DNA of 39,264 bases from NCBI GenBank assembly GCA_900128565.1, contig LT635937.1, positions 1-39,264 on the forward strand, read 5' to 3'. Under the pieces are notes generated by a model. It saw only the letters and a program-made list of their open reading frames with translations, had not been told where the DNA came from and ran no database searches. The position numbers and the translations under genes are program-made. Positions within the stretch are counted from its first letter, which is position 1; each line of letters starts with the position of its first letter. This DNA is from Stramenopiles sp. TOSAG23-6 (taxonomy: Eukaryota > Sar). This document shows, piece after piece, positions 1,533 to 39,264 of the stretch.

Positions 1533-4500
1533 ATGAATATGTTCTTCGTAGTGCTACTTCTTTTTTGTATGAATACTTCAGACTCGATTCAATCAAGAGA
1601 AGGAAATTATGCAAAACGTACCATTGCTATGGAACTATTAGATTTAAAAGGCAAATTGCACAAGAGGGAAACACCCATGAGCAGTATCAGAAAGCAAGCC
1701 ACCTCGCGTGTGAAAGGTACTTGTAAACTGAATAGTTTAATTGCTTGTTCAAAGGATTCGGATTGCATGGATTTAGGCCCCTGTTTAAGTGCAGCGTACT
1801 ATCAGTATTATCTTAATAATACTAAACAACATCAGGATTATCAAACGAATGGTTCTAATAGTACAAATATAACTATGAAAGATGTTGACGACAAAAACGT
1901 AACACTTTTGCGTAATAATGACACCACAGAGGGTATCCCAATTATCCAACACCCAAAAGAAGTAAACCTCACAGATACAGTAAAAAACATCGGAAAAACA
2001 CAATATACAAATTCAGAATCTGGGACAGTACCAGTGTCAATGTATCCGCCTGAGATTCCAAAACTTCCATCAGAAAAGTTTTGCACATTAAATGTCGATA
2101 AAAAATGTGACAGTGACGAAGATTGTGGTAGTAGTGGCCCATGCATGAGTGAAACAAAGGCTGAAAAAATAGAGGGTTTTGTTACTCCAATGAATCAACT
2201 AAATCAGACGAAAAGTAATATGACAAATATAAATTCCGGCAATAAAAATTCTACAAAAATAGATAAAGTTACTTCTGTTAATAGAACTCCGATAAACGAC
2301 ACAAAAAGGCTTGATAATTCTGTTAACAGAAATCCGATAAACGGCACAAAAAGGCTTGATAATTCTGTTAACAGAACTCCGATAAACGGCACAAAAAGGC
2401 CTGTTAATGAAAGCACATTGGAAGAATATTCAGATGTATTAAAGCATCCCATCTTTCGAAATATAAGTGTAGTATCCCATCCTCAATCTCTACTGAACAA
2501 TCAAAATAATCAAACAACAATATTACCCCTTCTAGACAATTCACCAAATGCAACTGCTTGGGGACTAGGGTATACTTTGGATCCACGAGTACAAATGTCG
2601 TCTGATTCTTGGTCCGTCCAACCACACAACAATAATAGTAATGGACCTTTGAGGCGCAGGGATTTAGAACAACGTAACGTACGCAAATCTAATACAATAT
2701 CGCCTAATGATGGTGTTGCAATACGCGCTGCTCTATGGAAAGCTGTACAGATTAATGATATTGTTGAAGTTCGACGGCTCATAGGTCTGTCCACATTATC
2801 TCAAAAAGATCTCAATTTAAAAAATAAAACAAGACATACAAAAGACGGTATCACAACTGAAACTGCTGTGAAAATACCTGTTTTACAGTGGGGTGGGATT
2901 GAACCTAGTGCATCAAGAAGATTAAGCTCATACTTGTATAATGGTGGTGTTTGTAAGTCAAGACCAATGCTTCGATGTTTGAAAGATGACGAATGCCATG
3001 AATATGCTCCATGTGTTACTGGTGTGTGTGCATATGATATAGAATTACGATGCGTTCAAGACGCAGAATGTCGTGAAAAGGGTCCATGTCTTCAACAGAG
3101 TGATCTTGGACATTGTAAACTCAAATGGGACCAACCTTGTATGAATGACCCTGAATGCCAAAAGTTCGGCCCTTGTACCTTTGGGGGTGAAGGAATTTGT
3201 CAAAAGGATGAAAATCGGCCATGTTCCCGAGATCAACATTGTTTCTCCTTTGGACCATGCTCTTTTGATGGAATTGGTCACTGTGTGAAAGATATGTCAA
3301 GAGGATGCTCGAAGAATAGTCATTGCTTTGAGAATGGGCCTTGTGCAATAGAAAATGGTACTGGATATTGCTCGCAGGATCCAGATATTCCATGTCAAAT
3401 AGACTTACATTGTGTTGACAAAGCACCATGCTTATTACCTGGTGCGTGTTATAGAAACGAAAAGATTGGTTGCTCTGGTCCACTTCACTGCAAAGTTGCT
3501 TCGCCGACGGGTGGCAATGATACTGGTCCGTGTTCTCCGACAGGTTGGGTTGGTAAATGTGCTCTTGAACCACAGAGAAAATGTAAACTTCAAAGTCATT
3601 GTGAACCTGGCAATGTTGGTCCATGTCTTGATGGTAGTGACAATAGAAAAGAATCACCTACTGGTGGAAAGGCAACTGCTGATGGTGAATGCTGTCTATG
3701 TTTGCCATTAAATCCGGACGCTCGCTGGCCAGGAGTGAATAGCTCTCCTATTGGAGAAGCCATGGGGCTTAAAGAATATGTGTGGGGTAAGAAGGGTGAT
3801 CCTGAGCCGAAAAATCCTGTTCGGCGGAAGAATCAACCACGATGGGAATGCTGTCCCTGTAGCGATAATCCTGATACTGGAAATGGTGCAGCTAAAACTG
3901 GTAGAGGTGTATGTATTAATTCTAAGGATAAAAATGCATGCAATACTCAAGCAGATTGTGCAGCTGATGAAAAACCTTGTCTGTTTGGTGGCAAAGGTTT
4001 TTGCGATAAAAAAAAAGAAATTACATGTAGTGCTGATATGCACTGTAACCCGGACTTTGGACCTTGTATGATGCCGGGTAAAGGGACTTGTGTGTTGGAT
4101 ACGAGGAAGACGTGTGACTCTGATCAAGATTGTGACAAAGTAGGACCCTGTGGGTTTAAAGGTGAAGGACATTGTGTAAAAAAGTCTTCAAAAAGTTGTG
4201 GTTCTGATAATCATTGTATTGACCGCGATGCAGGTGATTTAGGTCCATGTGCCTTCTTAGGTGCTGGATTTTGCAGGAAAATATGGACCCGGCAGTGTAA
4301 CACGGACAAACATTGCATTCAAATAAAATCAGATGGAACCAGTAATAATCTTGGACCGTGTGATATTGGAACATGCACTCATTCATCTGGTCACTCTTGT
4401 TCTGTGGATAAAGATTGTTTTGTAAAAAGTAAAGATAATCCTAAGAAGACTACAGACGTCGGACCATGCAAAACTGGGGCACACCGGCGAGATACATGTA

Positions 4501-7500
4501 GGCGTGCACCAGATTTACCATGTATATCTGACAAAGAATGTGGTACACGAGGACCTTGCATGTCTGGTCAATGTTCCCTTGATCGACTACGTGGATGTGC
4601 AGTTGACTTAGATTGCGGGAATACAGGACCTTGTCTCACTGGCATTTGTAAAGAATCAACCGATATAGCTTGCCTCACGGATGGTGAATGTAATATCCCG
4701 AACAAAGAAGTTGGTGGTGTTGTAAAGACTGACATTGGTCCATGTGTAAGTGGGTGGTGCGAAAAAGATCAAACCATTGGCTGTGATTTGGATTCTCATT
4801 GTGGAGACTCGGGTCCTTGTTCTATATTGACTCGAGGTTTTATTCCAGCACTACAAAGAGCTATTAAAGCTTCAGAATTGAATCATAAAAATTCCATGAA
4901 AACTTTCCCTCATAGTAAATCAGCAAACATGACACGTATAGAAGCTACAAACGCTGTTGCAAATGCAATGCAAGAAAAATCGTTGCTTACGAAGAGAATG
5001 AGACCGGATCTTCAAGGTCCTGCAATGCAAGCATGTAATTTTCTTGGGATAGAAAGGTGTAAGGAAATGTTAGGTGCTGCATACAACAGTTCGCATGTTG
5101 ATGTGGTAACAGCATTCAAAGTTTTACGGTCTGGTGATGCCACATCAGCATGTCTGGGGTTTGGGTGGTATAAATGCACTGAGAGTTTAAAGGAGGCAAA
5201 AGATAGACAACACGAAGATGTTGTTTTAGCAATTAAAGAATTAACACATAGTAGCAAAAAATTAAAAGAAAGAATTTTACTATCTAAAGAAATGGTCGCC
5301 GATACTCGATTGCGTGATGTTGCTCGATTGCAACGTTTGAATGCCCCACAAAGTGATATCACCGAGGCATCTGTAAAAGCAGCAGTTGCTTTAGAAGAAT
5401 CATTGCGCTCAAATTTACAACTTCTTGGGGTCTCAGCATCAAGCACAAAAGCCTCGATATCACCTCCTGAAATAGTTGCAAAGGCACGAGAAAAACAGGC
5501 CAAGTCATTACTTAGGGATGGTAGCATTACCGAAAGACAATTTGAATATATGCGACGTGATATGCATGCGTGGCTTCTCAATGCAACACGAATCAGAAAC
5601 CCGCAAAATTACACTATCATAGAGTCTCCTGGTTTTGAAAATAACTATGCTGATGTCTTTAAAATAGATGCTGGTTCTGGAACTCGTTTTGGATTTAATG
5701 GTACTACTAACGAACGAGGTGGTCCGCTCAAAGCAATCGGCAACGGTCGGCCCGGTGAGAAACATGGTGGAAAAGACAACATAACAAATTCATTTCGTTT
5801 CCATGAGGATAGTATGAAGTTGAAACGACTATATCAATTAGAGCACTTGGAAATGGGTAGTCAAATGTGGCCAAACCGAACACCAATCGATAGTTATGGT
5901 CCGCCACTTTTCTTTTCCAACTCAACGGGAACACCATTAACACTAGACATGTGCAACGGCGAAAAAGAACAAACAGCTGATTGTTATTGTCGAGTGCTTG
6001 GACCAAAGTTATGTGGTGAAAGTCTATTCCTTGCATACTTACAAGGCCACTCGGAAGTTATAGCTGCCATCCGTTCCACTCTCCGGGGCAATTCTACATC
6101 AATGGCGCTGACAATGTGTCGTGCATTAGGACCAAATAGATGTCGCAAAACATTAGCAGAAGCTGTAAGAAGCAATGACATTGCTGTTGTGGCCGCCTGG
6201 AGATTTCTTGTAAATGGAACGCTAGCCTTCCCTGCAATGAATGTTCTTGGTAACACACTGGCGCCCAATCGATGTAATAATTACACGGACTGCTCTGATA
6301 TAACAACGTGTATTGGTGGTCGCTGTTTAGAGCCTCGTGGCTCGGAATGTATGTCTCATAATGATTGTGTACAAGGTCGAAAGTGTATTGAGAAACGATG
6401 TTTTGCTAAACAACCATGCACAAGAACTTCGATGTGTACTTTTGATGAGAGATGCATTGGCGGACATTGCGCTGAAATTACTCCAGGTGTTCCATGTGCT
6501 CGGCGAGAAGACTGCGGTTTTGCTCAAGAATGTCGTAATTGGAAATGCATGCGAGTTGCGAAGCTCTTATCTTGCAAACGATCAATTGATTGTGGTCATG
6601 GACAAACATGTGGCCTCTTTCAAACATGTATTCCACGTCCTCCCTGGGATTGTGCCTCAGATAATGATTGTCCGTTCAAGACGACTATGTGTAATGTTAC
6701 TGAGGGGAAATGTGTGCCTAAAACCCGCACTGTTACTACTGGTGGTGAGTGTACATCTCCTGCACAATGTACACTTCCCGGGCAAACGTGTAGATATGGA
6801 AAATGTATTATTGTTGCTGAAGGGGCCCCCTGTGTTTCTACTGAAGGTTGTGGAGCTGGTTTTGCTTGTGATTTATCCGGGGGTTCCCCGGGAACTTGTC
6901 GAGGTCCAATTAAGATTGGCAGTTTATGTACAGGCGGACCGGGTACGGGTTCGTGTGCAAGTGGCCAAGTTTGTCGTGACGGAGTTTGTGTACTCGCGCC
7001 TAGTGTGGGTTCTGCATGTAAAGGTCCGGAATGTGGCTCTGGTAAGATGTGCGTGGAAGGATTTTGTGTATATGCGCCAGTTTCTCTGGTAATTCCACCA
7101 TGTAAAAGTGTCCCAAATATTGATCATGGTGGAGTATTTGCCAATCCTGGTAAACGAAATGAAACCGAGAAAGACAGCTTTGATGAAAATAAATGCTCGG
7201 GTGTAATGCCAATGGGTTCGTGTACTTATAATTGTAAAGAAAATTTTGAAATCCCTCCAGGTATATCTAACATTACAAACTGTCGATTAAACTCAACATG
7301 GTCAGAAGAACCACCAAAATGTACTTCCGAATTTACTTGTGCCCCAAACAGAGCTCTTCTGAGAGAAGATACATGCAAAGCGAAAGGTATTTGCAGTTGT
7401 TCGTCTCCTGTTTTACCCGGAACAAAGAAGCCACCCAAAACGTTGGATTCTACGACATGTGTTAACTGTGAAGATGAAGGTACTGGAGATAAATGTACTT

Positions 7501-10500
7501 GGACCTCTGATAATGAATGGCTTCGTGGAAAGGGAAAGATGGCTCTATTTTGGGCAATTCAAGATAGAAATCGGAGAGGTGTCCAATTTCTTTTAGATTC
7601 TGGTGCAGATCCAAATATAAGATTAGGTATAGAAGGTTGTCTTGACCCAACAATGACTTTCAATACTACAGAGGAAAAAGAAACGTATAAAAAAGAAATT
7701 CTTGCATCTCCTTGGTGTGAAAGTGCATCTATGAAAAGAGCAGTTGATGTCGCTGATGAAGTAGGTCCTGAAAGAACAGCAAGCATCATTCGTTCTGCCG
7801 GTGGTATTCCTGGTAATGCTGAAATGGTGTATCCATTTAAATGGGAGTCAGTAGTGGAAGCATGGAATCGTACTGCTGATGAAAAAAACTTTGGTATCCA
7901 TGGACATCTTCAATTCTTACCTTGGTGGCAATGTACGAACAGAAATGATCGCAAACGAGGTAAAGTGGGTTGCTACCCACACGCATATGATTGGGGCGAT
8001 TATAATGATTTGGCTTGTGATCCTGACACAGGTCTTAATTGTGAATGTGACGAAGAAGAACCTCCTGATAGTCCTTATACATGCGAAGTTGGTCAAGATC
8101 CAGATACTGGTGGGAAAACTCGCATAAAGAAGGGAAAATTTAAAAAAGGAAAACATCGAGAAGGAACTAACAGAGAAAGGAAACCAAAAGGATTTAAAAG
8201 ACCAACTGGTGGGAAGATTGGTCAGCCAGGTGATTGTGATTGGAATCCATTTACAAATTTGCCTTATTTTCTGTTTTGTATTATATTGAAGGTTCTCAAA
8301 CCTTTATTTACAATGTCGATGTTAGAGACAGGAGCTTCTTCTAATCAGTTAATGCTACCATATCAACCCCCAGTAGTTTCTAATAGTAGTATATCAGTTC
8401 CTTTTTTTCAAACACCAATGGAGAAAAATGATGTATATAATTCGTATATTGATACACCCATGGTTATAACAGATATATACCCACTTGCAAATAATCATTT
8501 TGCAGACAATTTCAATTCGTATAATGGCAATAAAAGTCAAACAAAAGTTGGTTTCAACCCCGTACTGGTAAAATATCCAGTGGATTTTTCTAACACATGG
8601 AATACGCCCAACTTGACCAATGCATTGTTATCATCAGTCATTGTCATTGAGCCTGAACGGTTTTCAAATTTAATTAGTGTGCTAGAATATCGTAATCGTA
8701 CCAGGAAGGGCAATATTTTACAGTATCACTCATTCACAAATTTGAACATTACCGGAAACAAATCAGCAAATGTGAAATTGAACGATAAGAATATCGATAT
8801 CATCAGAACCAGTGGAATGGGAGCAATGCGAAAATTGCTGCATTTCAATACGAGGAGCACAAAAAGAAGACACCTGCGTGGTGCGTGGGGTGTCAATCCT
8901 TCTAGTGTATTGCCATTAGATGAAACCCTGAGAATTCAAAAGAATGATGAGTCTTCGCGATTTTCTGAATTAAGAAATGAGCAACTTCGAGAAAGCTGGA
9001 ATTCTGGTGCAGTTTCATCGATGGTGAGTGCCACAAGTAGTCGAAATGGTGGGTCAGGTAAATGTGCCAAAAGTAAAGCTACATGTTGGACTAATTTAGA
9101 TTGTCCTACAGGGGACACGTGCTCTAAGATAAATAAAAAAGAAGGTGCTGGTTTTCAAGATCAATCTTGGGATAAATCAGAGAAGGGCGTGGATGCAAAA
9201 GATGCCCTTCAGACGCAAATGGCAACCTCTTTAGAAAACTTTGGCGGTGATAAAAATAAAAGAGGTGGCGGTCGTCAGGATACTTCAGTAGGTGGAAGTA
9301 ACGCAATCAGTGAAAAGGGGAAAGCTAATAAGGGCGAATCCGATAAAAGTAGTAATGACAGTAGTTCAAGTTCAACCATTGCTACTACTCCTAGAACAAA
9401 TTGGAAATGGTCAGGAAAGGAAAACATGAATACACCGGGGATGTCAGATTTCTCGTTCTCTCCCATGGATCATGGCCGTGGTATATTTGTCTTTGGTGGA
9501 ATGCGACACGATTACGACAAATTCACAAGCGGTCAAAATGTCTATTTAGATGAAGCATGGTACTATCGTCTTGGTTGGAATGAGACTACTTCCGAAGTAA
9601 CATGGTATGGTCATTTTTGGTTACCAACAGCTCTTTTGGGAACTAAACCATCCCCTCGAGCAGGACACACTTCTGTTGTTGCAGCAGCATTAGGAAGTGG
9701 AGACAGTGAAATTTGTTTCGAGGACGTCGAACAAATTTCTGCCACAGCCAAACGACAAGCAAGTGACCCGCGCAATAAAGCTCTTGAAGAAGCAAAAGCA
9801 AAAGCCGCTACAATGGATGTGCATGATGAAAAATCGACAAAGAAAGAAGGCGAATGTGTTGCTAGAGTTCCATCAGATACATCTGAGTGCACGCCCATCG
9901 TAGACCTCGACGTATGCAAGGGTAACATTAAATGTAAAGTAAGTTCAGAAAGCTCGTCGTCGGCTCCAGTCGATCAAGCTGATATGTTTAGATTTGAAAA
10001 AAATACTTCTTCAGAAGCAGATGACACAAATGAAATTGAGGGAAACAACAGAGAAGATGAAGATGATGAAGATGATGGCGATGACGAACATCCGAAACCT
10101 TCATACAAGACAATATTAATATTTGGAGGATATAATGGAACTCATTTCTTCAACGATTTATATTCGGTTTTTCCAATTGAAGAGTCCAGTCAACAGTTAG
10201 CAAAACAAATGGATCGACTCAAAATGCCAAATGACACTGATATATTCAAAAAGCGAGCATCAACTTTTGACTACAAACATTTTTTGCAACACGAAGGTTT
10301 TAAACGATGCGTCGGGAAGTTTAATGATACTGATACGGGTAGTATAATCGAAGGGGCAGCTGAGTGGTGCCTCGGGTTCTTTGCTCTACCATGGGAAGGA
10401 GAGCCTTGGGTACGAACTTTAGGTGATCCAAAACGAAATGATTCCCGTGGGAATGAGTGGGCAGACAAACCTCGATTCCGAAAAGTCTTGCCATATTGCA

Positions 10501-13500
10501 TGGATACAAAACACCATAGAGAAAGAAATCCCAATACATTTCAATTTCGACAAAGGCGCACCCGAATTCGAAATAAGCAACCATGTATGCCAACATCTTA
10601 TAGAGGTTGTTATTTAGATTGCAAAAATGGCATGGAAGACAATAACCGTGCTTTACCGACTATGGCGGGAATAATGTCGAAACAAGAATGCGAAGACTCT
10701 GCCAAAAATTCATTCGCAAAATTTTATGGACTCCAAGGTCAAGATTTATCAAGCAATAATACAAGACGCGATCTAAGCCAGTGTTGGATAGGAAATTCAA
10801 CGTATGACACTATGGGGAAAAGCGACGACTGTAATATTTATGGTCTTCAAACAAGAATTGCATATGGTAAGAATTGTACAAATGCTGTATATGAGGTAGA
10901 AGTTAGAAGCACAAAAACCAGTGGAATATTTGAATGCAAAGGATGTGATGAATATGGAGGTCCAGGATTGATAAATTGTAAAGTAGACAAAATCACCGAC
11001 GCTGAGAAGGACATACACGAAACACTAACAAAACAATGTTTCGCAATGGATAATGCGAATATTCAACACAAAGATAATTGCGAAAAACATAAATCAATCG
11101 CAGAATGTGATACACAGTTAGAATGCACTACTGAAAAATGCAGTGCGAGCTCATTTATTGTGTCATATGTTACTAGCAATAATATTGCAAATTGTTCAGT
11201 AAAATATTGCAATGTGGAAGATGATCAGGGTGATGCTGAAAAGGCTCTTTCGTATGAAGTGTGTATGAGTATTTTTGACTGTCATGCATACTCTGAGGGA
11301 GCTACTTCGCCGAGATATGATAGTGGAAATTCACAATGGAGAAGGGGTTCTAAAAAACGTTCATTTTGCCATCCAATTGGTAACGCTTGCGTGGAGCGTG
11401 GTATTGGAGATGATATTATTGAAATATCTAGAGAGGTTTGTAATAGTCGGACACTTCCAGCTCCGAGATACCGACATGCATCTACTGTTATTGGACCTTA
11501 TATGATCATTCATGGAGGCATGGGGGCTACGGGTTTTTTGAATGATACAAGAATATTTGACACAAGGAATTCAACATGGTTAGCTGTATACCCGAGCGGG
11601 AATTCTATTCCACCTTCCCGTGCTGGACACTCAATGACAGGTATAGGTACACGTGTCATAATATTTGGCGGATATTCTGGGAGCGCTGGGTTATTTAACG
11701 ATGTATATGTCTTAGAAACTGGGTGCAAAAAAGTACCACCAAATGAAGGCGGGGGATTCAACTGCGGAGAGTGGCCCAACATGAAGTGGCGAAGCGTAAA
11801 GATTGATGGCCCACGCCCCTCAGCAAGGTTTGGACATCGCAGTGTATCTGCAATAGATTCCTCGATGATGCTTAGTGTAGGTGGCTATGGAGCAGGCTCG
11901 GATAATCAGGACTGGCGCAAGCGAAGGAATATGGAAGGTTTACGAAACGAAATGATACTACTTGATGTTTTAGTTCCTAATGTGACCAGTGTATTTCCTC
12001 GTCAAGGATCACCGTCGGGTTATCAAACTGATAATGTCACATGGTATAAGGGGAAACCATACATTAATGAAGTTATTGACTCGAGTGGCAATGTGCTCAT
12101 AAAAAAACACACTAAACTTGCTGGAAGATTGAAGATGCAAATTAGAGGTCGCAGTCTTGGCAATTGTCCGAAGCCATATGCCACAGTCAATGGGATCCAG
12201 AGATGCAATACTACGTGTACGGATGCTTCCTGCAATGAAAGCGTTTGGCACTCGAACAATAATAATGTTATGGTAACTATCGGGAAAAAGAAATGTGATC
12301 ACATTACTTGGTATAGTCCAAACTATATTGAGTGTGAAGTACCCCCGGGGGTTGGAAAACTTCTTAATGTAGTTGTCTGGGCATTTGGACAGTCAACTTC
12401 GACAGACCCACCGAATCGATTGTGGTCCTATGACCCACCCAAAATACTAGATATCTTACCATCTTTTGTGTTGGACTTTCCTGGTGTCCCGAGAGGTCCA
12501 CTAATTATACAAGGAAAGAATTTTGGTAGCCCAGAACTTGACAAAGATGAGTTAATGATGAAGCTGACTATAGGAGGACAAGCATGCTTGAAGTTCATAC
12601 ATGTGTCTGACACTACTATTATATGCCTATGCGTTGCTCGACGAGACAAAAATCAGCCTATAGGTAGCGAAGCAAAAGGTGGCATGACAGTATCTATTGG
12701 AGGACAAGAAGCGGTTGAAAAAAATAAACCGGCAATAATATCCGCACCAGTGAACTTTGCAAAATTAATGAAGAGGCAACTGAAGCGCAGAGGAAGTCTT
12801 GTAAGGTGCCCAGAAGCCGATGATATGGCTCGATTACTATTTACTCCCGGTATGGAAGCCATTCAGGATGACTTAAAATTGTTTCAAGAAGAATTCAAAG
12901 AAGACGCCGAAAATATTAGCTTTTCTGGAAGCCAGGATGCTTGTAGTGATGAGAGAAGTTCAACAAGAGACGATTGTTTATCGAAAGGTATTTGGGCAGA
13001 CGGTGGGTGTAATCCAGATCAATCAATCAAAACAAAGGAAGAATGTAAAACTAAGAGGAATTGGAAAGTTCAACCGGCAAAGTGTAGCGATGATACCAAA
13101 AAAAATAAAGCCGACTGTGAAAGTTCAGCATCTACGCCGATTACATGGGATTCTGAAACCAAAAGTTGCTCCGATAATAAGTCGGCAACAGAAGGAGAAT
13201 GTGCCGCGAGTCAAGCAGCTGCAGCAAATATTAAATGGATAGAAGAGTCCGAAAGTTGTAGTGACTCAAAATACTCCTCGAATAAAGCGAAATGTACGAA
13301 TGACCTTTGGACCAGTGCACATTGTTTAAATAAAGCCGGGGGTACATGCGAAGAACTACCATCTGGTGGATGTACGTTTTCATTTCAATTTCGAATTAGT
13401 TTTTTTTTTATAGTAAATTTTGTATCTAACAAAAATATCAAATTTTTGAAATAGTTTTTGACAGTACATGTACACCAAAGTACGAGCACTTGAGCTCAGC

Positions 13501-16500
13501 AGACTATAACTGTAAAAAACATGATTGCAATGGGAAGCTGATTTTTCAAGCTGAGCCATTCGATAATGTCACCTGTACAACAATCGGAGAATGGTATGTT
13601 GGGAGTACACAGGCAACGCTTAGAAAAATGGTTGCGAATACTATAGATGCCCAAACTGCAGAACGAAATGCAATAATTAAAGCGACAAATATCACACATA
13701 AGCCACTACTTGAAGCCTACGCTCGTAAAGTTGCCTTTGTACAGACTATGCTTGACGCAAAGATTTCTATCAAAGAAATTCACCGACGGATATTTGCTGG
13801 ACTAGAGAAGCTATCTTTGACAAATGATATCACTGCACGAAACTTTCTCGGTAATATGACTGCTCTAATACGAAAAGACATGAACATTGCTATAAATGCA
13901 ACAAATGTTGTTAATGAAAACAAGATGAAAACAGAGGAGTTGGAGAATGATTTCAGTGCAGCAAATAAAACATTTACTGACGCTAACGAAAAGGCTACTG
14001 TAGCTAAAGCCACATTTGAGAAAGTTCAAAATATAGAAAGAAAAGAAAGGTTAGACCGCTCACGCGTTTGTGCGCTAGAAAATAATCGTGAATTCGATGG
14101 CGAGAGTGCACAGTTTGACACAACAGATCCTTGTATTGTTGATTATTTAGAAAAACGGCGATTTGAGTTAAAAGAGGCTCGTGTTGATATGCTACAACTT
14201 ATCTCTGCAGCAAATGCTACACAAAGTGGGTATACGACAAAATTTTTTGCATTTAATAAATCCCGAAGTCTTCTTGACAAAGTAATACCGATTGCAAACA
14301 AGGCGAAGAGCGCATTGAATATGACTATCAGAACTGCAATAAAAAATATCACAAACGCTGTTACCGATATCAATAGTTTTAAAAATTCATTAACAAATAT
14401 GAGTGGGCGCAAAGAGCTTCTGAACAAGACAGCTGAACTAGGTAAAGATTTGAATAGAACAAGTTCTGTTATTAGCTTCTGGAACAATCTTCCAACTTTG
14501 TTGGATCGTGTATCTGGCGCAACAAATATTTCCAGAGGAGTTTTGCCAGATGACCTTGTGAATGGTTTCCATGACGCCGATTTTTACGACGTAAATAAAG
14601 ACTTGCGTGGTCTTTTAGATGCTGTCGGAAGCAAAGATGTAGTTGGCAACATTTTAATAGATTTACAGAAAAATTTAGACGTTATAAAAAGTAGAAATGC
14701 AACACTAGATGATGTCTTTAATGCATTAAAATCAAACATTTCAGAGAGTCTACATGGAAACATCGATGTAGAACACAATGGAATGAAAAAGATCACAAAA
14801 CTCGCAGGAATGGTATCACAATTGAGCATAATGAAAGCATCAATGGATGCCGCCTCAGCTACAAGATCAAAAGCACAGTCTTCCAATATCACGGATAGTC
14901 TTGTCAGAGAAGTTTCAAAGATGCAAAATTATTTTAATCAACAAGATATATTTAGTGGTGTAATCAAATCCCTCAAAGATGGCACAGCTTCTGCATCAGA
15001 TAAAGAAACAATAGAAACTTTACAGAAGACGATGAATATAGCTAAGGATAATGCAAATCTTAAAGTGGAGGATGAAACAAAATATTACCAGNATCTTCTG
15101 ATTTCTGATCTTGATGATGCATGCAGCGCATACAGGGATAAATATCAACAAGAAAATAGTGGAACACAGGATTCAATTTTATTAGTTGGCGAGCAGTGTA
15201 TTAAGCGCACTCTAGGCCCAGATAATTCATCGACAGAAACAATATTAGATGAAAAGTTGTGGCGGAAGCCCGTTGCAGATAAATCAATCAGTGAAACAGA
15301 AAACACAGATACTTCAAATAATGGGATAATCGGAAGCGTCGTAAAGTACATACAGCCAGATGGAACTGACGAAGGAAAACGGATCACTGCAAAAGTCATA
15401 GGGTTTGAAGACAATGAAGAAAAGTTAAAAGAATCATTTAGTAAGATGCCGTACTATGTCCTGAAACTAGGGGACAGTAAAGAAGTTCATACATTGAGAT
15501 CCCAGTTTTTCATAAAAGGAGAAGAAGGCTACGAAGATCCTGAAGCCGAATCTGAAGTAAGCCCCGAATCCATCGCAGATGCTGAAAATAGTAAAAGCGA
15601 CACGAATGTGTCAGAAGGGGCTAACTCAAATGAAGACGACGCTGGAAATAAATCGGGAGAAAATTCTGAGAATAGTTCAAATTTACTTCATTCTGGGAGT
15701 TCAGATACCGAAACTACAGAGAGAGACACAAATAGTGGAAGTAGAACAACCGAAGTTAAAGTTGGACCCGAAGATACTGAAGATATAATGTTTATTGAAA
15801 CAGGTATAGATACAGCAAATAAAATACATTTGCGTGGCTCTGTATCTACCGTATACTTACAAACGGAGAAGAGCGACACCCCTTCCAGATTTTCAAAGAC
15901 TCCTCCAAATTTGCATACATGGCATGTGTGGTTATCAAAACATAGCATGGGAATATTCAAAAATTTGAAAATTCAAGAAGCTAAACAATCTCAAAATGTA
16001 TTTAATAGTAATTATTCGTTTATCCCATCTGACTTTATGAATGTAAACCAACTTGAAGCACTCATTAAGGGCGATCGAAAGTTTCCTACGTCACGTAGAA
16101 GAATTCCAGAAAACACATTCGCTAATAGTAGTCGGTTCAAACATAATACAGGTACTTCAAATGCACCTATATGCAACTTAGTAATGGATCATGGAAAATC
16201 AATACAACAGATGCAACCCTGTCATTGCGATAAGTTGCAAAGTTTGGCAGATCTAAAAGGTAGTATTGGTATCGAAGATATCCCAGACGATTGTCTGGGT
16301 GATGTCAAACATTTCGCATACTCTCTTGCTTGTAAAAAAATGTGGAATGTATACATGGAAAGTTGTAGCCCAAAGCACATGCGATTGTATCGCACATCAG
16401 GAATACACGTAATCTATAACCAGTGCCACTTACTGAAATTTTCTACTGCTGCTGTGTGTGGAATTGTACCAGGCGAAGATTGGAAATCTCCATTTGTACC

Positions 16501-17191
16501 CAGTAATACTAAATCAGATGCAGAAAGTATGCGTTTTATGAGATCAAAGTTTAGTTGGCAAAGACCTGTTAGTGGAGCATTAGAAAGTAAACTAAAAGAA
16601 ATAGTCAGAAAACTGGAAAGAAGATCACAAGCACCAGCATCATTTATGAGACAGTGGTCAAAGTATGTGGCACATATACAAGACGATAATATTATAGAAT
16701 ACGATTTGTTTAGATTTAGACGAGCGTATGACATTGATGTACCATACGTGTCTGGAAAGACTTATCCAATGACATCTATTCAAATAGAAACTCCCCAAAC
16801 AATTGAGAAACAAATTGATATTGATATTGATTACGCTTTACATATGAGTAACAAGATGGCAAATATGCCGGTTAGTGCTCGATGGATACAACCAAATTTT
16901 CTCTGCTCAGTGGGAAAGCCAATGCTTCCACGCCGATCATTTGGCATAATGAAAGTAGGTATGGGAGACAAGTTTATCCTGTTTTTTGGAGAAGGAATCA
17001 ATGATGGACCTTTGTCAATGAAAGTTGGAGATAAATCATCAATAATGTCAAACAGTACATTTGGAATATTACCACTACCACCGAGAGATTTGAATGATAC
17101 ATTTATTCTGACGGACTTATACAAAGCTTCTGAAGATGAAAAACTCGGTTATGGATTACAGCTGATGTCATGCAATGGTCATCAACTATAG
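1533..17191 (+). CDS. giant secreted multidomain mosaic protein (about 5191 aa, two exons)
   Basis: Exon 1 (1533-13371) and exon 2 (13455-17191) join in frame. The start is the ATG at 1533, because it opens a clear signal peptide (MNMFFVVLLLFCM); the frame upstream has no ATG. Approximate residue order: two GPC cysteine modules and an N-glycosylation-rich spacer (60-400); a weak ankyrin-like helix pair (398-430); a cysteine-repeat array C-x2-D-x2-C-x3-GPC (473-1096); helical CxxLG repeats (1163-1240, 1470-1570); EB/dickkopf-like cysteine modules (1580-1851); a sushi-like module (1855-1931); an ankyrin repeat with GADPN (2000-2035); kelch blades with FGG motifs (2643-2880, 3306-3480) split by a WSC-like domain (3018-3120); IPT/TIG-like segments (3481-3740); C..W..C repeats (3796-3946); helical region (3996-4490); an SH3/Tudor-like strand segment (4575-4634); an acidic linker; an unknown C-terminus. 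A hydrophobic stretch near 8270-8330 might be a membrane segment; no C-terminal anchor is seen. It is probably a secreted or cell-surface adhesive protein (inference). Confidence 0.8.
2271..2405 (+). repeat. three tandem 45-bp units coding 15-residue glycosylation repeats
   Basis: Three in-frame copies at 2271, 2316 and 2361 encode the pattern xSVNRxPINxTKRxx. Each copy has an N-x-T sequon at INGT or INDT, and the first and third have a second at NRT. Copies differ at only a few bases, so the expansion is recent. Confidence 0.85.
2949..4820 (+). repeat. array of about 18 cysteine modules with the GPC signature
   Basis: Within the giant protein, modules of roughly 25-35 residues follow C-x2-D-x2-C-x3-(G/A)PC-x(3-6)-G-x-C. 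Examples are RCVQDAECREKGPC, PCSRDQHCFSFGPC and GCAVDLDCGNTGPC. Two more isolated modules occur near 1770 and 2130, giving about 20. Even cysteine numbers suggest disulfide-bonded units outside the cell. An insert at about 3640-3900 carries paired ECC motifs. I do not recognise this as a named domain. Confidence 0.75.
5020..6240 (+). repeat. paired CxxLG helical repeats in the giant protein
   Basis: Four copies of a segment of about 40 residues occur in two pairs (about 5020-5250 and 5940-6240). The shared pattern is C-x2-(L/F)G-x3-C-x3-L-x2-A-x6-(D/E)VV-x-A-x3-L, for example ACNFLGIERCKEMLGAAYN and MCRALGPNRCRKTLAEAVR. The helix-turn-helix character resembles ankyrin repeats, but the paired cysteines and the LG turn are distinct. 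Confidence 0.6.
9460..11970 (+). other. kelch-type propeller region interrupted by a WSC-like domain
   Basis: Kelch signatures appear at about 9480 (IFVFGGM), 10115 (ILIFGGYNGTHFFNDLY), 11500 (MIIHGGM), 11655 (VIIFGGYSGSAGLFNDVY) and 11870 (MLSVGGYG), with RAGH, RYRH and RFGH turns between blades. Between the second and third signatures lies an insert of about 420 residues. Within it, 10585-10890 has the layout of a WSC-like domain: RGCYLDC, RALP, a C..A helix, FYGLQ, QCWIGN and a closing DDC..YGLQ segment. Confidence 0.65.
11975..12750 (+). other. IPT/TIG-like immunoglobulin-fold segments in the giant protein
   Basis: Two stretches show the start of IPT/TIG domains, VTSVFPRQGSPSG near 11985 and ILDILPSFVLDFPGVPRGP near 12450. 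The second is followed by LIIQGKNFG and a VTIG-like strand (KLTIGGQACLKF). Position directly after kelch blades fits extracellular mosaic proteins in which these folds are adjacent. Confidence 0.55.
13372..13454 (+). other. 83-bp spliceosomal intron in the giant gene
   Basis: The donor T|GTACGT and the acceptor GAAATAG|T give an in-frame join (..PSGG-FFDSTCTPKYEH..). A good branch-point sequence, TCTAAC, lies at 13425-13430, 24 bases before the end of the intron, followed by an AT-rich stretch. Unspliced, exon 1 would end in a hydrophobic tail read from intron bases. The exon 2 frame has no convincing ATG near its start, which supports splicing. Confidence 0.8.
15092..15092. other. single ambiguous base in the giant gene
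   Basis: The base is n, first position of a NAT codon, so the residue is Asn, Asp, His or Tyr. The frame is the same and open on both sides, so this is an uncertain substitution or allele and not an indel. Confidence 0.9.
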
Positions 17192-17740: not shown

Positions 17741-20700
17741 TCAATCTACCGAGAATTTGATATACTTTGGAAAGGACTGTTTTTCTACCATCAGATTCAA
17801 CAAAGTCACAATTTTTGATGCACTCTCAGTTTTTTCTTCTTCTTCTCTCAAGACTCTAAAGCACAACATTTGAAATAGTTCGTCATTCCCGTATGTCCTA
17901 CCTATCCCAATTGGTGTGAACAAGTCACAGTTGACAATGTCCTTTTTATCAGGCTTACTCCAACAAAGTCCCATTTTTGTTGTCTGTATTACTTTACTGC
18001 ATTTTGGAATTCCTTGTGACATGTATATCCTGCGAGCAGCAATATTGCGAATTACATCCTCTGCTTCCTGAGCCATCATTTCCTTATCCAATTCAATACG
18101 TTCCCGACGTTCATCCTCATCTAAATCTTCATATGAAAAATCCAACTCTTGAGGGCGAGATTTGGATTGTTTCTCAGGAACAGCCACTTCATTATATGGA
18201 AGGCAAACATCATCTTTTCTTGGCATTTCACATGCAACCATTGCATATATTTTACGGCCCGGCAAGTATACATCTCTCACCATTAATGATATGTCAAAAT
18301 CTTCATTGTAATCGATACCACCCTTGACCAGTAGTGACGTCATTTTTTCGGCATCTGGTTCAGGTACTAATTCGGTCAATTCTTGTTGCAAGGCACTTAG
18401 ACTACTCAAATGCAGTGCTTCTCTTACATCTCGCTCTGCGGATCTGCTTGCATTTTGACATGCAGTATGAATTACATCTGCTTCCACTCTAACAACATCA
18501 CGCAATAAACCCCAAAATAACTCTTGGTTTGTGTCATGTGTAGCCTTTAGCATACTTAAATCCTCTTTTTTACACTTTAGTGACCAGTGTTTTGAGATCT
18601 GTAGAGAGGAATCAGTTCCATGCCCATTTATACTTACCATATCGAACATTACTTTTTGTGTCTTTAATTCACGCAATTTATTGATTATGTTGTTTATGCC
18701 ACCACCAATTAAAGTATAATTGAATTGATTTTTCTGTAAACATTCAACTTCATTTGTGAAGAGTCTGCTAAATACATTATTATGATCTGCTTCAGGTGTT
18801 GTATAAATGATCAGAACATTTTTGGCTGTTTCAGCATTTTTTGATTCATATTGCTCTTCCCCGCATTTAACATAACGAAAACTGTATGTTGGCAGACTTA
18901 AAGGCCTATAAAATTTAATCAGATGACATTCCTCACATTTTTCACACACATTACGAGCTCTGCAGCGATCTCCTTCTAAAGAATGAACTCTCTTCAAATT
19001 AATTTCTTCATGAGAATCTACACCATTCGGCAACTTAAAGAGTTGTTCATGTAAACGATGAACATATATTTGCAATGTACCGTTTTGAATCTTATCATAT
19101 AATCCTCTTGGGACTTCTCCGCCAATTGGATTTGGATTATGGAGGAAACCAAAAAAAGGGTCAAAGTCTGTACGCATTTTGAATTCTTTCAATGCATGCA
19201 TCTTCCCCATAGTCTCTGGTATCTGACCTTGAAGCCGATTATCATTCAAGTCCAGAATTTTCAGATTATCGAGATTGCCTAAACTTTCAGGTATTTCACA
19301 TCGAAAGTCTTGGTTTATTCTTAAAACTTCAAGATTAAGAAGTGTACCAATTTCAGATGGAATAACCCCATACAAAAGTTCATTATTAGCAATGGATATT
19401 TTCACAAGACTCTTCATTGCACCAATAGACTTTGGTATTTCACCTGTAAACTTTGTGTTTTCCACCAATAACTCTGTAAAATCAACATTGAACTGATCAA
19501 TATCTGGAAATTTGCCCTCGAAATCTGGACCTCGAAGGTGTAAAACTAAAGGTCTCTTATGAGAGACTATTCGTGCCACTTTTCGGATTACTAAAAAATT
19601 GTTGTCTACATGCCCACAAAATTTCTCCAATTCGTTCATGGATTCTTTCTCCAATTCATACAATGGCTTCAATTCAGATTGCTTCAATTCATTAATGGAA
19701 TCTTCATCCAATTCATAAAATGGAGAAAGATCCTTTAATGTTTGAAATGCCTTAATTTTAACATTCTGAATGTCTTCAATGCACTCACCAAGGCCAATCA
19801 TTTTCAAATACTCTTTAATTTTTGCAAATTCAGACTCTGTGCTCTGATATAGTATTTCAAATTCTAGAAGCTCGCGTACTTCTGCACGAGGATAATCTAG
19901 CTCATACCAGCGGTAATCTTTACCAACAATTCTTTCTGGTTCTGGACCATAAAAATGGTTGTGTGAGATAACAAAACTTTCTAGTGCGTTGTGCTGAAGT
20001 GCGGTGGGTGGTAATGTTCCTGACATATTATTATGACTGATATCTAGAACTTCCAATTTTATAGGGAGTGTATTTGGAAATTTTCCTGTGATCTGATTAT
20101 GTGATAAGTTAAGTAGTTCCAAGCTTTTCATATGTAGACCAAATTCTGGCAATTTTCCTCTTAATTTATTGTTTGATAATCTCAACAACGTCATTTTGTC
20201 ATGTTCTAGAAGTCTTTTCCATGGTATCAATCCTGTCAAATTATTACCTCCAAGGTCAAGACGTTCTAAATTTTGCAAAAAAAAGCTAGGAATTGATCCA
20301 GATAGTTTTCTGCCGTATCTGTTGCATAAGGAAATTGATTTCAGTGCTGTGAAAGCTCTGAAGATTTCTTGTGGTAAAATCCCAGAAACATCATCCGAAG
20401 TCAAAGTCACAATTAATTTCTTCCTTGGAAGTTCATAGAAGTTCCATCTATTGGATAAAGTTCCAACGATCTTCAGAGTGCCATAACTATAATTTACTTC
20501 CACTCTTTGAAGTAGACTCCTAAGTCTCTTTTTCTCAGCACTTTCAGCCTCCATAACCTCCCTCCAATTGGTATCACCCTTTCTTTCGGGGATTGTTATT
20601 GCGTTTTCCCTAATAGGCTCACTGTATGCCATTAGTTCAAGTTCTTCTAATTTTTCTAGATTACCTATACCAGATGGAATCACATCACCACTGATTTTGT

Positions 20701-21589
20701 TAAAAGCCAGGTCAAGTTTTTCCAGTTGTGTGAGTTTCTGAAATCCCTCTGGATAACGACCATTAATATTAGTATGAGCAATTCGTAAGTCTTTTAGGTT
20801 TGTCAGAGTCGTTATACCTTCAGGTATTTCTCCACTTAGTTTGTTACCAGTCAACTTGAGAACAGTTAGTTTCTGTAATTCACTGATTGTTGACGGTATA
20901 TGCCCTGAAAGTTCGTTGAATGACAAATCAAGATGCTCCAGATTTGAAAGTTTAGAGACTTCAGGTATTTCTCCGCTTAGCTTGTTGTGTGACAAACTAA
21001 GATACTTCAGATTTGAAAGTTTAAAGACTTCAGGTGGAATTGCTCCAATAAGGGGACAATCTCTGCCAACAAGAAGTACTATTATATCCGTCAAAAATCC
21101 AATTGAAGCTGGGATTTTCACTGGGATTTGTTTTCTGTTCATATATTCGTTGCATATGTAGAAACGAGGTGTTTTGTGTATGTATGCCGTTGCGACGTTT
21201 ACATTTATTCTCATTTCGTAAAATTTCACGGAGTCTTTGTTGTAGTCTATTTCGCATACCACTCCAAATTCTTCATCTGATAATCTGTTCAATTTCCTTA
21301 AATAGTTCCCCCATAGAGTAGTAGTAGTATCAGCATCTCCAAGAAGCTTGCTTCTGTCACATGATTTTAAACCTTCTAAACCAAACTTTTGCTTGAATTC
21401 ATTGCTTAATCTACCCTTTCCATTGAATTCCTCAGGAACCATTCTTTTCGATGGTTCTTTCGCTTCTTGCACTGGTTCACCTGGTTCACTGGGTACTCTG
21501 GGTTGAAGTGTTGTTCCAGCAACATCGCCTCCTTGAGCACATTCCAAGGATAGCACAAAGACGATTAACAGTGGTAGTAAACGTGACAT
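17741..21589 (-). CDS. secreted leucine-rich-repeat protein with C-terminal caspase/CHAT-like domain
   Basis: The 1282-residue product starts at the ATG at 21589, which opens a signal peptide (MSRLLPLLIVFVLSLECAQG). After a cysteine-containing cap come three blocks of plant-type LRRs with the LxxLxLxxNxLxGxIP pattern, at about residues 190-320, 400-550 and 695-800. A short cysteine-rich linker (near 876, CEKCEEC) leads to an alpha/beta domain at 917-1125. That domain has strand NVLIIYTT, strand YTLIGGG, then SINGHG (His990) and, 54 residues later, DVIHTACQNAS (Cys1044). A hydrophobic strand ending in His-Gly, then one ending in Ala-Cys, is the dyad layout of clan CD cysteine peptidases (caspase, CHAT, gingipain, DUF4347-like). 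A second Cys at 1120 (YAMVACEMP) is an alternative nucleophile. No membrane anchor or GPI tail is evident. Assignment of the LRRs is certain; peptidase activity is inferred. Confidence 0.7.
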   Translation of the reverse strand: MSRLLPLLIVFVLSLECAQGGDVAGTTLQPRVPSEPGEPVQEAKEPSKRMVPEEFNGKGRLSNEFKQKFGLEGLKSCDRSKLLGDADTTTTLWGNYLRKLNRLSDEEFGVVCEIDYNKDSVKFYEMRINVNVATAYIHKTPRFYICNEYMNRKQIPVKIPASIGFLTDIIVLLVGRDCPLIGAIPPEVFKLSNLKYLSLSHNKLSGEIPEVSKLSNLEHLDLSFNELSGHIPSTISELQKLTVLKLTGNKLSGEIPEGITTLTNLKDLRIAHTNINGRYPEGFQKLTQLEKLDLAFNKISGDVIPSGIGNLEKLEELELMAYSEPIRENAITIPERKGDTNWREVMEAESAEKKRLRSLLQRVEVNYSYGTLKIVGTLSNRWNFYELPRKKLIVTLTSDDVSGILPQEIFRAFTALKSISLCNRYGRKLSGSIPSFFLQNLERLDLGGNNLTGLIPWKRLLEHDKMTLLRLSNNKLRGKLPEFGLHMKSLELLNLSHNQITGKFPNTLPIKLEVLDISHNNMSGTLPPTALQHNALESFVISHNHFYGPEPERIVGKDYRWYELDYPRAEVRELLEFEILYQSTESEFAKIKEYLKMIGLGECIEDIQNVKIKAFQTLKDLSPFYELDEDSINELKQSELKPLYELEKESMNELEKFCGHVDNNFLVIRKVARIVSHKRPLVLHLRGPDFEGKFPDIDQFNVDFTELLVENTKFTGEIPKSIGAMKSLVKISIANNELLYGVIPSEIGTLLNLEVLRINQDFRCEIPESLGNLDNLKILDLNDNRLQGQIPETMGKMHALKEFKMRTDFDPFFGFLHNPNPIGGEVPRGLYDKIQNGTLQIYVHRLHEQLFKLPNGVDSHEEINLKRVHSLEGDRCRARNVCEKCEECHLIKFYRPLSLPTYSFRYVKCGEEQYESKNAETAKNVLIIYTTPEADHNNVFSRLFTNEVECLQKNQFNYTLIGGGINNIINKLRELKTQKVMFDMVSINGHGTDSSLQISKHWSLKCKKEDLSMLKATHDTNQELFWGLLRDVVRVEADVIHTACQNASRSAERDVREALHLSSLSALQQELTELVPEPDAEKMTSLLVKGGIDYNEDFDISLMVRDVYLPGRKIYAMVACEMPRKDDVCLPYNEVAVPEKQSKSRPQELDFSYEDLDEDERRERIELDKEMMAQEAEDVIRNIAARRIYMSQGIPKCSKVIQTTKMGLCWSKPDKKDIVNCDLFTPIGIGRTYGNDELFQMLCFRVLREEEEKTESASKIVTLLNLMVEKQSFPKYIKFSVD

Positions 21590-36970: not shown

Positions 36971-39264
36971 TTAAAGTACATTCAAAATAGCTATAATCAA
37001 TACGAGAGAAACCGAATGCATTTCAGCTCTGGGGGTAGAATCATTGTTATCAGTCAAAATAACGTCTACTGGTGATTCATCGGATGGTGGTTGTTCCGGT
37101 GGAGTCAAACTGTTTTTTACTGTAGACGGATCACTCACAGTTGTGTTCAATTCTCTCTCTAACGTTACTTTGTCCACATTTGTCTGTTTACTGAGAGCGG
37201 TAATAAAAGAAGTTTTCGAAAAAGATTTTTGAACGTCTGCCAATCCTTGGGCACTTGCAATACCGGATTTCTTGAAAAATAGGGCTGCTGCAGAGTGACC
37301 CTTGGATAAAGAGGCAACAGTAACGGCATCTGTAACAGAAGTATCTGCTCCATTGCTTGCAGAAACTCTAATAATTTCTGTTGGTAATTTTGTGGCTAAA
37401 ATATCTTGTGAAATTTGTGGTTGATTCTGTGCGTATTTAGTAGCTTCAGTTTGTATTATTGGATCAGTTGATTGTACAACATATTCGCGTACAAATTTAT
37501 CAGTGGCACCCGATGCTAAGCGACGCACATTTCCTGTAGTTGAAGAAACAGCGAAAATCTTACAGACGTTTCCTGCATTATTCCCACACATCAATGTAAT
37601 CAATGCTGCCACAATTGCAGATTCTTCTTTGCTACAATCTGCTCTCTTACAATTCACATTCAAATAAATGTAATCAGATTTCGTTACGTTTACTGTAACC
37701 TCACTTGCAGACATTCCACTTGCTTCAAGTGCTGCTGATGACAATACTTTCGCTGGATTTGGTAAGGATAAAATTTCTTTCAAGTTACCCAGTGGAAGCG
37801 TCATTTTTGCCACTACTTGAGTTATAACTGGTGCGGGTGTTTCGGGTACTTTCTCATCTGGTTTTTCTGTGTCTCCAAAGTTGGGTGTCATAGTTTTTTC
37901 GCATTGCAGAGTAGGTGCCTTTAACGTTCCATTGTCACAGGAGAAGTCCCCACTTGTATTAGTAACAGGGGTATATCCACTTTTGCATAATATCTTACAA
38001 GAACCACCGCTTTTCAGTTCTATCTCGCTTATGCAACTTTGGTCAAATATTGTATTCTCTGTAAATTTCTGTGGCAAACTACATGGCGATTTTACCTTCG
38101 ATTCACAATTGGTGCCTTCAAAACCATCCTTGCACTGACAAGTACAGTTTCCAATTAAACCACTTGCAGTTCCTTGATCTTTGACACATTTTTCTCCATT
38201 GCTTCCAACGAGACATTTCTGTGCAGTCTCACAGTGATCGCCTTCATAACCATCCATACATTTACAGGTACAATTTTTACCAGTACCTGCAGGCTCACCT
38301 TGGCCTTTAGTACAGGGATGATTATTTGGTCCTACTGTACATTTCTTTGCAGTCTGGCATTCATCGCCTTCAAATCCAGCTTCACAATCACATTTACAGT
38401 CCCCAGTGAAACCTGATACTTTACCCTGTCCTTCCACACATTGTTTACCGCGTTTGTTAGCAGTACACGCTGCAGCTGTTTGACAATTCAATCCTTCAAA
38501 TCCTGTTCCTTTACAATCACATGAACAATGTCCAATTAAACCAGTTGCAATTGAATTATTAAGACAGGCTTCACCATCTTTTCCAGTTGTACATTTCTTG
38601 GCAGTTTGGCAATGATCACCTTCATAACCATCATTACATTCACATCTACAGTCTCCAGTAAAACCAACTGGATTGCCCTGTCCTTGGACACACTGGGTGC
38701 CGTTTTTATTAGCAGTACACGCGGCAGCTGTTTGACAATACAATCCTTCGAATCCTGTTCCTTTACAATCACATGAACAATTTCCTGTTAGACCAGTTGC
38801 AATTGAATTATTAAGACAAGCTTTACCGTCCTTTCCAGTGGTACATTCCGAAAAATTTTCACACTCGTCTCCTTGAAATCCATCTTTACATTTACATGTA
38901 CAACTTCCAGTAACACCTATGGCTTCACCTTGATCTTTGACACATTCCTTTCCATTCTGACTAAGCAAGCATTTTTTTGCAATTTCACAAAGAAGGCCTT
39001 CATAACCATCGATACATTTACACCCACAATTTCCAGTCACACCAGTGACAACTGAATTGTTCAGACATGCTTTACCATCCTTTCCAGTTGTACATTTCTT
39101 TGCAGTCTGACATTCATCGCCTTCAAATCCAGCTTCACACTCACATTTACAGTCTCCAGTGAAACCTGATACTTTACCCTGTCCTTTTACGCATTGTTTA
39201 CCGCGTTTGTTAGCAGTACACGCGGCAGCTGTTTGACAATACAATCCTTCGAATCCTGTTCCTT
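36971..39264 (-). CDS. EGF-repeat surface protein, N-terminus outside the window
   Basis: The frame is open to the right edge, so the 5' end is missing; an apparent start near 39244 is only an internal TTG codon. About 764 residues are visible. The visible N-terminal part has nine tandem EGF-like units of about 42 residues (C-x8-C-x14-C-x-C-x-C-x(7-9)-C), ending near 38095. A sushi-like segment follows (SCKILCKSGYTPV ... LKAPTLQC). Then comes an SEA-like region of about 200 residues, preceded by a proline-rich linker (PDEKVPETPAP), and a Ser/Thr/Pro tail. The last 15 residues are hydrophobic (SVSLVLIIAILNVL), after a small-residue cleavage site, which fits a GPI anchor. Probably a cell-wall or membrane adhesin (inference). 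Confidence 0.8.
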   Translation of the reverse strand, partial: GTGFEGLYCQTAAACTANKRGKQCVKGQGKVSGFTGDCKCECEAGFEGDECQTAKKCTTGKDGKACLNNSVVTGVTGNCGCKCIDGYEGLLCEIAKKCLLSQNGKECVKDQGEAIGVTGSCTCKCKDGFQGDECENFSECTTGKDGKACLNNSIATGLTGNCSCDCKGTGFEGLYCQTAAACTANKNGTQCVQGQGNPVGFTGDCRCECNDGYEGDHCQTAKKCTTGKDGEACLNNSIATGLIGHCSCDCKGTGFEGLNCQTAAACTANKRGKQCVEGQGKVSGFTGDCKCDCEAGFEGDECQTAKKCTVGPNNHPCTKGQGEPAGTGKNCTCKCMDGYEGDHCETAQKCLVGSNGEKCVKDQGTASGLIGNCTCQCKDGFEGTNCESKVKSPCSLPQKFTENTIFDQSCISEIELKSGGSCKILCKSGYTPVTNTSGDFSCDNGTLKAPTLQCEKTMTPNFGDTEKPDEKVPETPAPVITQVVAKMTLPLGNLKEILSLPNPAKVLSSAALEASGMSASEVTVNVTKSDYIYLNVNCKRADCSKEESAIVAALITLMCGNNAGNVCKIFAVSSTTGNVRRLASGATDKFVREYVVQSTDPIIQTEATKYAQNQPQISQDILATKLPTEIIRVSASNGADTSVTDAVTVASLSKGHSAAALFFKKSGIASAQGLADVQKSFSKTSFITALSKQTNVDKVTLERELNTTVSDPSTVKNSLTPPEQPPSDESPVDVILTDNNDSTPRAEMHSVSLVLIIAILNVL
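38095..39264 (-). repeat. EGF unit array with higher-order repeat
   Basis: The units are not all alike. Alternating types A (TTGKDGxACLNNS) and B (TANKxGxQCVxGQG) form about 84-residue dimers, for example near 38470-38830. The A-B block at 38345-38510 is very close at the DNA level to 39097-39264, which indicates recent duplication or gene conversion. Confidence 0.8.

Follow-up and report, generated by a model that had tools for sequence, protein, structure and literature searches.

The window, the whole stretch of DNA analysed here (39,264 nucleotides; positions 1 to 39,264 of contig LT635937.1 of Stramenopiles sp. TOSAG23-6), carries on its minus strand a reading frame that is open from 21595 to 17741, with its first ATG at 21589 and a product of 1282 aa. 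On balance, we favor reading this product as a secreted leucine-rich repeat (LRR) protein with a C-terminal DUF4347-related, probably clan CD domain that holds a His990/Cys1044 dyad, and as one of at least four paralogues. The window is contig C395 in an assembly of 408 contigs and 8.03 Mb and has eukaryotic gene content (RING-variant, CDC20-type WD40 and CCCH-finger matches in Pfam). The EukProt prediction for the gene itself is named GSMAST32.ASY1.ANO1.82.1, a name that we take to denote a single-cell assembly of a MAST-3 stramenopile; passages of PMC5778133 describe assemblies of MAST-3A and MAST-3F. The layout of the gene is as follows:

17741..21589, minus strand: complete coding sequence, 1282 aa, taken as intronless, stop codon counted (open reading frame; the EukProt model of the same gene, P0001, is 65 aa shorter)
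21530..21589, minus strand: signal-peptide-like N-terminus, residues 1-20 (sequence inspection and hydropathy scan)
20600..21127, minus strand: LRR block 1, approximately residues 155-330, plant-type GxIP repeats (LRR_1/LRR_8/LRR_14)
19910..20437, minus strand: LRR block 2, approximately residues 385-560 (Pfam and motif scan)
19100..19522, minus strand: LRR block 3, approximately residues 690-830 (Pfam and motif scan)
18863..18964, minus strand: cluster of five Cys, residues 876-909, ahead of the peptidase-like domain (sequence inspection)
18215..18838, minus strand: DUF4347-like, clan-CD-like core, residues 918-1125 (paralogue alignment, profile comparison and model)
18617..18634, minus strand: SINGHG, with the candidate catalytic His990 at 18620-18622 (invariant in 4/4 paralogues; column His in 80/80 fetched DUF4347 sequences)
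18446..18478, minus strand: DVIHTACQNAS, with the candidate catalytic Cys1044 at 18458-18460 (invariant in 4/4 paralogues; column Cys in 80/80 fetched DUF4347 sequences)
18254..18328, minus strand: VKGG...VRDVYLPGR block 3' of Cys1044, residues 1088-1112, the part best conserved with the C68 paralogue (alignment)
17744..18214, minus strand: Cys-containing C-terminal tail, residues 1126-1282, with CLP, CS and GLCWS motifs partly common to the paralogues (alignment)

The P0001 model omits approximately residues 350-415 (20345-20542), by hand a GT-AG-like intron; the stretch is open in frame and LRR-like in sequence, and its omission is probably a prediction error. Secretion and membrane calls for this and the three related proteins were made by eye and from hydropathy. 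The N-terminus of the window protein, MSRLLPLLIVFVLSLECAQG, resembles a signal peptide by eye and has a 17-residue Kyte-Doolittle mean of 1.94, which ranks behind a value of 2.06 at residues 159-175, where the LRRs start. An LRR_1 match was obtained in Pfam at 1.3e-34, and seven strict plant-type LxxLxLxxNxLxGxIP-like motifs were located in the three blocks (three, three, and one with looser repeats around it). No kinase was present among the Pfam matches, no membrane anchor was obvious by hydropathy, and the C-terminal 405 aa matched no Pfam family over the cut-off. His990 and Cys1044 are 54 residues apart, and a further Cys is found at position 1120. The original prediction, made from the letters of this stretch, had described this signal-peptide-like start, the three plant-type LRR blocks, the Cys cluster and the spacing of the dyad, and all were borne out by translation, Pfam, and the motif and hydropathy scans.

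LRRs together with the same domain are also encoded on contigs C68, C317 and C344 of the same genome. As judged by sequence, the family has at least four members; this is a lower bound, and the search with the window protein missed both C317 and C344. The C68 locus was a weak match to the C-terminal 405 aa of the window protein (E 0.00125) and was also matched by an LRR search. Removal of two introns of 97 and 132 nt, both GT-AG, gives an 1181-aa product. It has LRRs behind a signal-peptide-like start, a domain that contains TGHG and IGCKNA, repeats of IQ-like type, and a hydrophobic segment at the C-terminus. C317 was the sole, sub-threshold match (18.1 bits) in a DUF4347 model search of the genome; its 962-aa model has a signal-peptide-like start (hydropathy just 1.33), LRRs and QGHG...NACSTG. 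With the C317 protein as query, C344 was found at E 1.6e-19; its model of 1348 aa has a signal anchor at the N-terminus (hydropathy 3.41 over 17 residues) and also carries LRRs and SAHG...HACLTA, the SAHG motif being interrupted by an intron. Searching the genome with C344 returned itself, C317 and one 20-residue stretch elsewhere on C344. The exon ends of C317 and C344 were set by reading frame, without RNA, and three of the four family genes have introns. A third weak locus, on C112 (E 0.147), was rejected, as its frame looks by eye like an ABC transporter. In two of the paralogues, IQ-motif-like and Ala/Glu-rich repeats lie within apparently extracellular parts (L022 637-3618 and L012 ~4592-4704), which is an odd location for calmodulin-binding motifs; the IQ match in C68 has an E of 1.2, and the one in C344 was seen by eye.

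The window protein thus does not stand by itself but belongs to a family of four or more, each with a secretory-looking N-terminus, and the description of an apparently secreted LRR protein fused to a clan-CD-like domain was supported. The N-termini of all four look consistent with entry into the secretory pathway. Anchoring differs: two proteins have only the signal-peptide-like start, one combines it with a C-terminal hydrophobic segment, and one has an N-terminal signal anchor. From these N-terminal and anchoring types, the LRRs and the peptidase-like domain of each paralogue would lie outside the cell or in a lumen. Such placement would also suit a prey-capture or digestive factor, in which the peptidase attacks prey or a substrate that the LRRs have bound at the surface or in a food vacuole; to our knowledge, however, ordinary vacuolar peptidases are not built as large LRR fusions. 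We consider this explanation distinctly unlikely: the host group is heterotrophic according to passages of PMC5778133, but the same passages state that MAST-3F, if the host is that lineage, has fewer protease genes and is possibly not bacterivorous. The type of LRR varies among the four paralogues, and the order of parts is common to the four models: LRRs, the domain, then a Cys-containing tail. This order, together with the unequal anchoring, would also fit a processing domain of an adhesin, which cuts itself once during export and so matures or releases the LRR part with no sensing of a ligand. A conserved cleavage site was not noticed, although no systematic search for one was made, and we hold this alternative to be possible at somewhat less than even chances.

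The reading of the domain as a DUF4347-related, clan-CD-like peptidase draws first on the conservation of its dyad. His990 and Cys1044 are invariant in all four paralogue domains at an identity to the C317 copy of 19-34%, and the alignment of the four domains has 14 invariant columns of 240, i.e., the dyad and 12 others. Because a second Cys, Cys950 of the window protein, is also among the 14, conservation alone cannot name the nucleophile; it is the register with DUF4347 that does. Cys1120 was rejected as nucleophile, since none of the three other paralogues has a Cys at that column, and the choice of His990/Cys1044 over Cys1120 put forward in the original prediction for testing in orthologues therefore held in paralogues. 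When the window protein was aligned locally to C68, taken without its IQ insertion, the half with the dyad reached a z of 8.9 with the dyad in register and the part after Cys1044 a z of 12.7, and in both cases none of 2000 shuffles reached the score. The similarity in the dyad region thus exceeds chance. The strong divergence beyond the dyad could also be expected of an inactive pseudo-peptidase that retains the fold as a peptide-binding or structural module. The precedent for such modules consists of domains without the dyad, whereas here both His and Cys are kept in 4/4 copies and fall on the His and Cys of the fetched DUF4347 sequences; we therefore regard this possibility as unlikely. As both dyad residues were kept through strong divergence, a working peptidase is favored, and we lean slightly towards the domain being active.

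For comparison with DUF4347, the best 80 of 305 bacterial loci were used, which had been fetched with a hand-written DUF4347-like bait; five of five fetched sequences that were scanned scored 171-193 bits on PF14252. In an unguided MAFFT alignment, His990 and Cys1044 fell in columns that are His and Cys in 80/80 of the fetched rows, an invariance that is partly built in because two of the six bait patterns hold the dyad motifs. A profile of the four family rows matched the 80 DUF4347 sequences in hhalign with a probability of 95.7 and a score of 58.6 over 81 columns, HG on HG and C on C; the maximum in 60 column shuffles was 20.4 and the reversed alignment scored 13.1. Eight subsets drawn from the four rows were also compared with each of three families, using 25 shuffles per comparison. 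As single rows, C317 (40.3), C344 (34.6) and C68 (31.4) each scored above all of their 25 shuffles. The window protein alone scored 17.9, below its shuffle maximum of 19.5 (n=25), though with an unchanged register, while the pair of window protein and C68 scored 35.9 against a shuffle maximum of 17.8. It is thus through C68 that the window protein is placed with DUF4347. The curated PF14252 cut-off of 24.6 bits was not reached: the window protein had no match and C317 scored 16.3 bits over its whole frame and 19.4 with the domain taken by itself, and on Pfam the C317 domain matched DUF4347 at E 9e-4, under the cut-off. A GGDW-type motif after the Cys is nearly invariant (>=90%) in alignment A4; residues 1095-1098 of the window protein read NEDF at a place where the alignment is unreliable. 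The failure of the window protein alone against its shuffles, and the many unrelated alpha/beta folds found in the fold search described below, would be expected if the motif had arisen by chance within an unrelated alpha/beta domain. Against this, three paralogues pass separately and the window protein aligns to one of them at a z of 8.9 with the dyad in register, so that a chance origin is already unlikely on the sequence evidence, and we rate it as very improbable overall. Homology, with the window domain as a divergent eukaryotic relative of DUF4347, is what we hold with considerable confidence. Among the families named in the original prediction, DUF4347 was the best match by hhalign, while CHAT did not stand.

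CHAT (PF12770) was rejected, as the four-row comparison gave a probability of 0.66, within 60 shuffles. In the eight subsets its probability was at most 0.82, with two three-row subsets barely over their 25 shuffles (18.7 vs 15.4 and 17.6 vs 17.3) at probabilities below 1, and by hmmscan the window protein had no CHAT match and the C317 domain one of E 0.061 and 13.2 bits (cut-off 24). Loci without a central open frame of >=150 aa were dropped from the CHAT and C14 sets, which left 25 of 30 CHAT and 27 of 30 C14 loci. Against Peptidase_C14 (PF00656), the window protein with C68 and C344 scored 28.0 at a probability of 17.6, with the dyad in register and a maximum of 20.1 in 100 shuffles (0/100 reached the score); the window protein with C68 scored 26.2 at a probability of 11.7, which one of 100 shuffles reached. 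These 100-shuffle reruns were post hoc, on two subsets chosen since both had exceeded their shuffles earlier. The window protein alone was within its shuffles, and neither hmmscan of the family genes nor the search of their own genome gave a C14 match. Between the family profiles themselves, DUF4347 was not clearly linked to either C14 or CHAT (probability 1.4 each), while C14 gave 86.3 against CHAT. Peptidase_C80 was sub-threshold in three of five scanned bacterial DUF4347 sequences (E 0.013-0.2), and a search of the own genome for Peptidase_C80 gave no match, although its control likewise gave none anywhere. The clan CD label for DUF4347 is probably correct; it draws on motif layout, the weak C80 matches and the model rather than on a strong sequence test. 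A separate CHAT protein is encoded on C47 (L018 1309-2280; 33 bits, over the cut-off) with a P-loop-like stretch next to it, and is a candidate intracellular CHAT-NTPase (STAND-like).

The AlphaFold2 (AF2) model of the domain, built with DUF4347 rows, has the order beta-alpha-beta-alpha-beta-His-alpha-beta-Cys, with model strand 65-72 followed by His73 and strand 116-126 followed by Cys127, and thus borrows from the DUF4347 alignment. Block means of the predicted local distance difference test (pLDDT) lay at 83-93 across model residues 41-70 and at 82-90 across 101-120, and values were low beside both dyad residues; single-sequence AF2 of residues 915-1130 gave a pLDDT of 35.9. The predicted model is mediocre in quality, with the expected strand order present. 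In VIA-align, model residue 126 ended at position 284 of caspase-1 (three rows) or 253 of caspase-11 (one row), so that Cys1044 (model residue 127) would fall on Cys254 of caspase-11, the residue mutated according to the title of the matched entry, and on the caspase-1 position that we take to be Cys285. The match to solved caspases was no better than that to unrelated alpha/beta folds in Foldseek and VIA-align: type II dehydroquinase, lumazine synthase and KaiC ranked above or among the caspases and were taken as generic alpha/beta resemblance. The caspase-like fold proposed in the original prediction therefore agrees in strand order and is not singled out by comparison with solved structures. 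Neither a different fold nor loss of the dyad, the two outcomes named beforehand as contrary to it, appeared, with a fold comparison that did not discriminate and a dyad checked in paralogues.

Our best reading of the sequence is an extracellular LRR binder that would carry a DUF4347-type, clan-CD-like cysteine peptidase. The protein would enter the secretory pathway, consistent with all four N-termini, and its LRRs, by their domain class, may bind a ligand, prey or a surface protein. A putative cysteine-peptidase site would lie where strands 3 and 4 end, as conservation and register suggest. Caspase-like domains in surface proteins of bacteria provide the analogy for a last step, in which a limited cut of the protein's own chain or of a bound partner could release or mature a surface module. 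The activity is probably best described as limited cleavage or self-cleavage carried out by a surface or secreted protein that bears LRRs; that self-cleavage is the main act we hold to be possible, though less likely than not. An extracellular receptor-protease family, in which variable LRR ectodomains sense an outside ligand and directly switch on the attached DUF4347-related caspase-like peptidase, we think unlikely. If it existed, such a family would serve immunity, allorecognition or prey recognition with no kinase or adaptor, with recognition and proteolytic output in one secreted chain. Where clan CD peptidases are fused to sensor repeats, the known examples are mainly intracellular. A multi-gene LRR and clan CD family outside a free-living protist cell would broaden what caspase-like domains are known to do in eukaryotes and would represent a simple design in which a single chain leads from recognition to cleavage, and DUF4347, still a domain of unknown function in Pfam, would gain a testable dyad and a setting.

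Outside the genome, the C-terminal part matched a single entry in a set of 5.8 billion proteins, the gene's own EukProt prediction. These searches confirmed no relative from elsewhere (1/4183 candidates, the own prediction; 0/163; 0/4320); they were bounded by length windows and shared words and also missed the paralogue predictions, so that absence is not shown. No stretch of viral contigs was confirmed (0/146 and 0/27), plasmids gave no match to the C317 domain, and NCBIfam and PADLOC gave sub-threshold noise only. By sequence, the PDB held nothing for the window protein or C317, and its profile matches (E 0.16 or worse) were judged spurious. No LRR-DUF4347 family came up in titles, the beginnings of abstracts and passages of PMC3482391 found for LRRs combined with caspase-like or CHAT domains, which is not proof of absence; in the main text of PMC8163842 on MAST genomes the words 'caspase', 'leucine' and 'LRR' do not occur. 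PMC8262886 describes DUF4347 as uncharacterised where it occurs in a bacterial effector, and a 'DUF4347 domain-containing protein' is tabulated for green algae (PMC10451321) and a snail (PMC6744689), so that eukaryotic proteins bearing the name are already in print.

Introner-like elements were observed in the same genome. The 20-mer TACGAAATTTTGTACCTAAC occurs 1138 + 1029 times (<=2 mismatches) in the 8.03 Mb, and its backwards pattern 0 + 0 times. Elements were placed as introns by reading frame at window positions 13372-13469, L022 3565-3656 and L017 3155-3261. The 3' end of these three introns is not AG; the elements start with (AT)GTAYG and end with AC(AT), and because the AT is shared, GT-AT, TG-CA and AT-AC boundaries are indistinguishable. 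The fourth intron considered, of 242 nt and thus longer, belongs to C317 and could not be fitted to this pattern, and both C68 introns are GT-AG. Passages of PMC7789003 describe non-canonical introners with direct repeats in Amoebophrya; a search of the introner literature gave no MAST report among the matches listed. In the window, the open reading frames 1470-13454, which carries Kelch and TIG domains, and 13490-17191 are probably one giant gene (1470-17191) split by the intron at 13372-13469, across which the frame reads on as SGG-C-TPKYEH (hand translation). Contig C27 contains mirror-image duplicate matches and C13 and C14 have identical element spacing, which points to chimeras formed during amplification, or to contig duplication, in the single-cell assembly. 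The window frame 36971-39244 has many similar EGF-like Cys-rich repeats by eye and no Pfam match over the cut-off.

Among known systems, plant LRR receptor-like proteins have GxIP LRR blocks behind a signal peptide, a layout that the window protein resembles with its signal-peptide-like start; unlike them, it has a peptidase-like domain after the LRRs, no kinase match and no obvious anchor. TPR-CHAT proteins combine a repeat domain and a caspase-like peptidase in one chain, which is the likeness of CHAT proteins to the family. Caspases and metacaspases (Peptidase_C14) have GHG and AC motifs in register with it, whereas the match probability is low (17.6) and the family is apparently extracellular and carries LRRs. 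Peptidase_C80 comprises self-cleaving cysteine protease domains; its likeness to the family comes through the weak matches in bacterial DUF4347 sequences, and the family's own genome gave no C80 match in the search whose control also gave none. The likeness to bacterial DUF4347 (PF14252) extends to the order of helix, strand-HG and strand-C and to shared His and Cys columns, while the paralogues differ from it in scoring below the Pfam cut-off, in being eukaryotic genes of which three in four have introns, in their fusion to LRRs, and in the sequence that follows the Cys.

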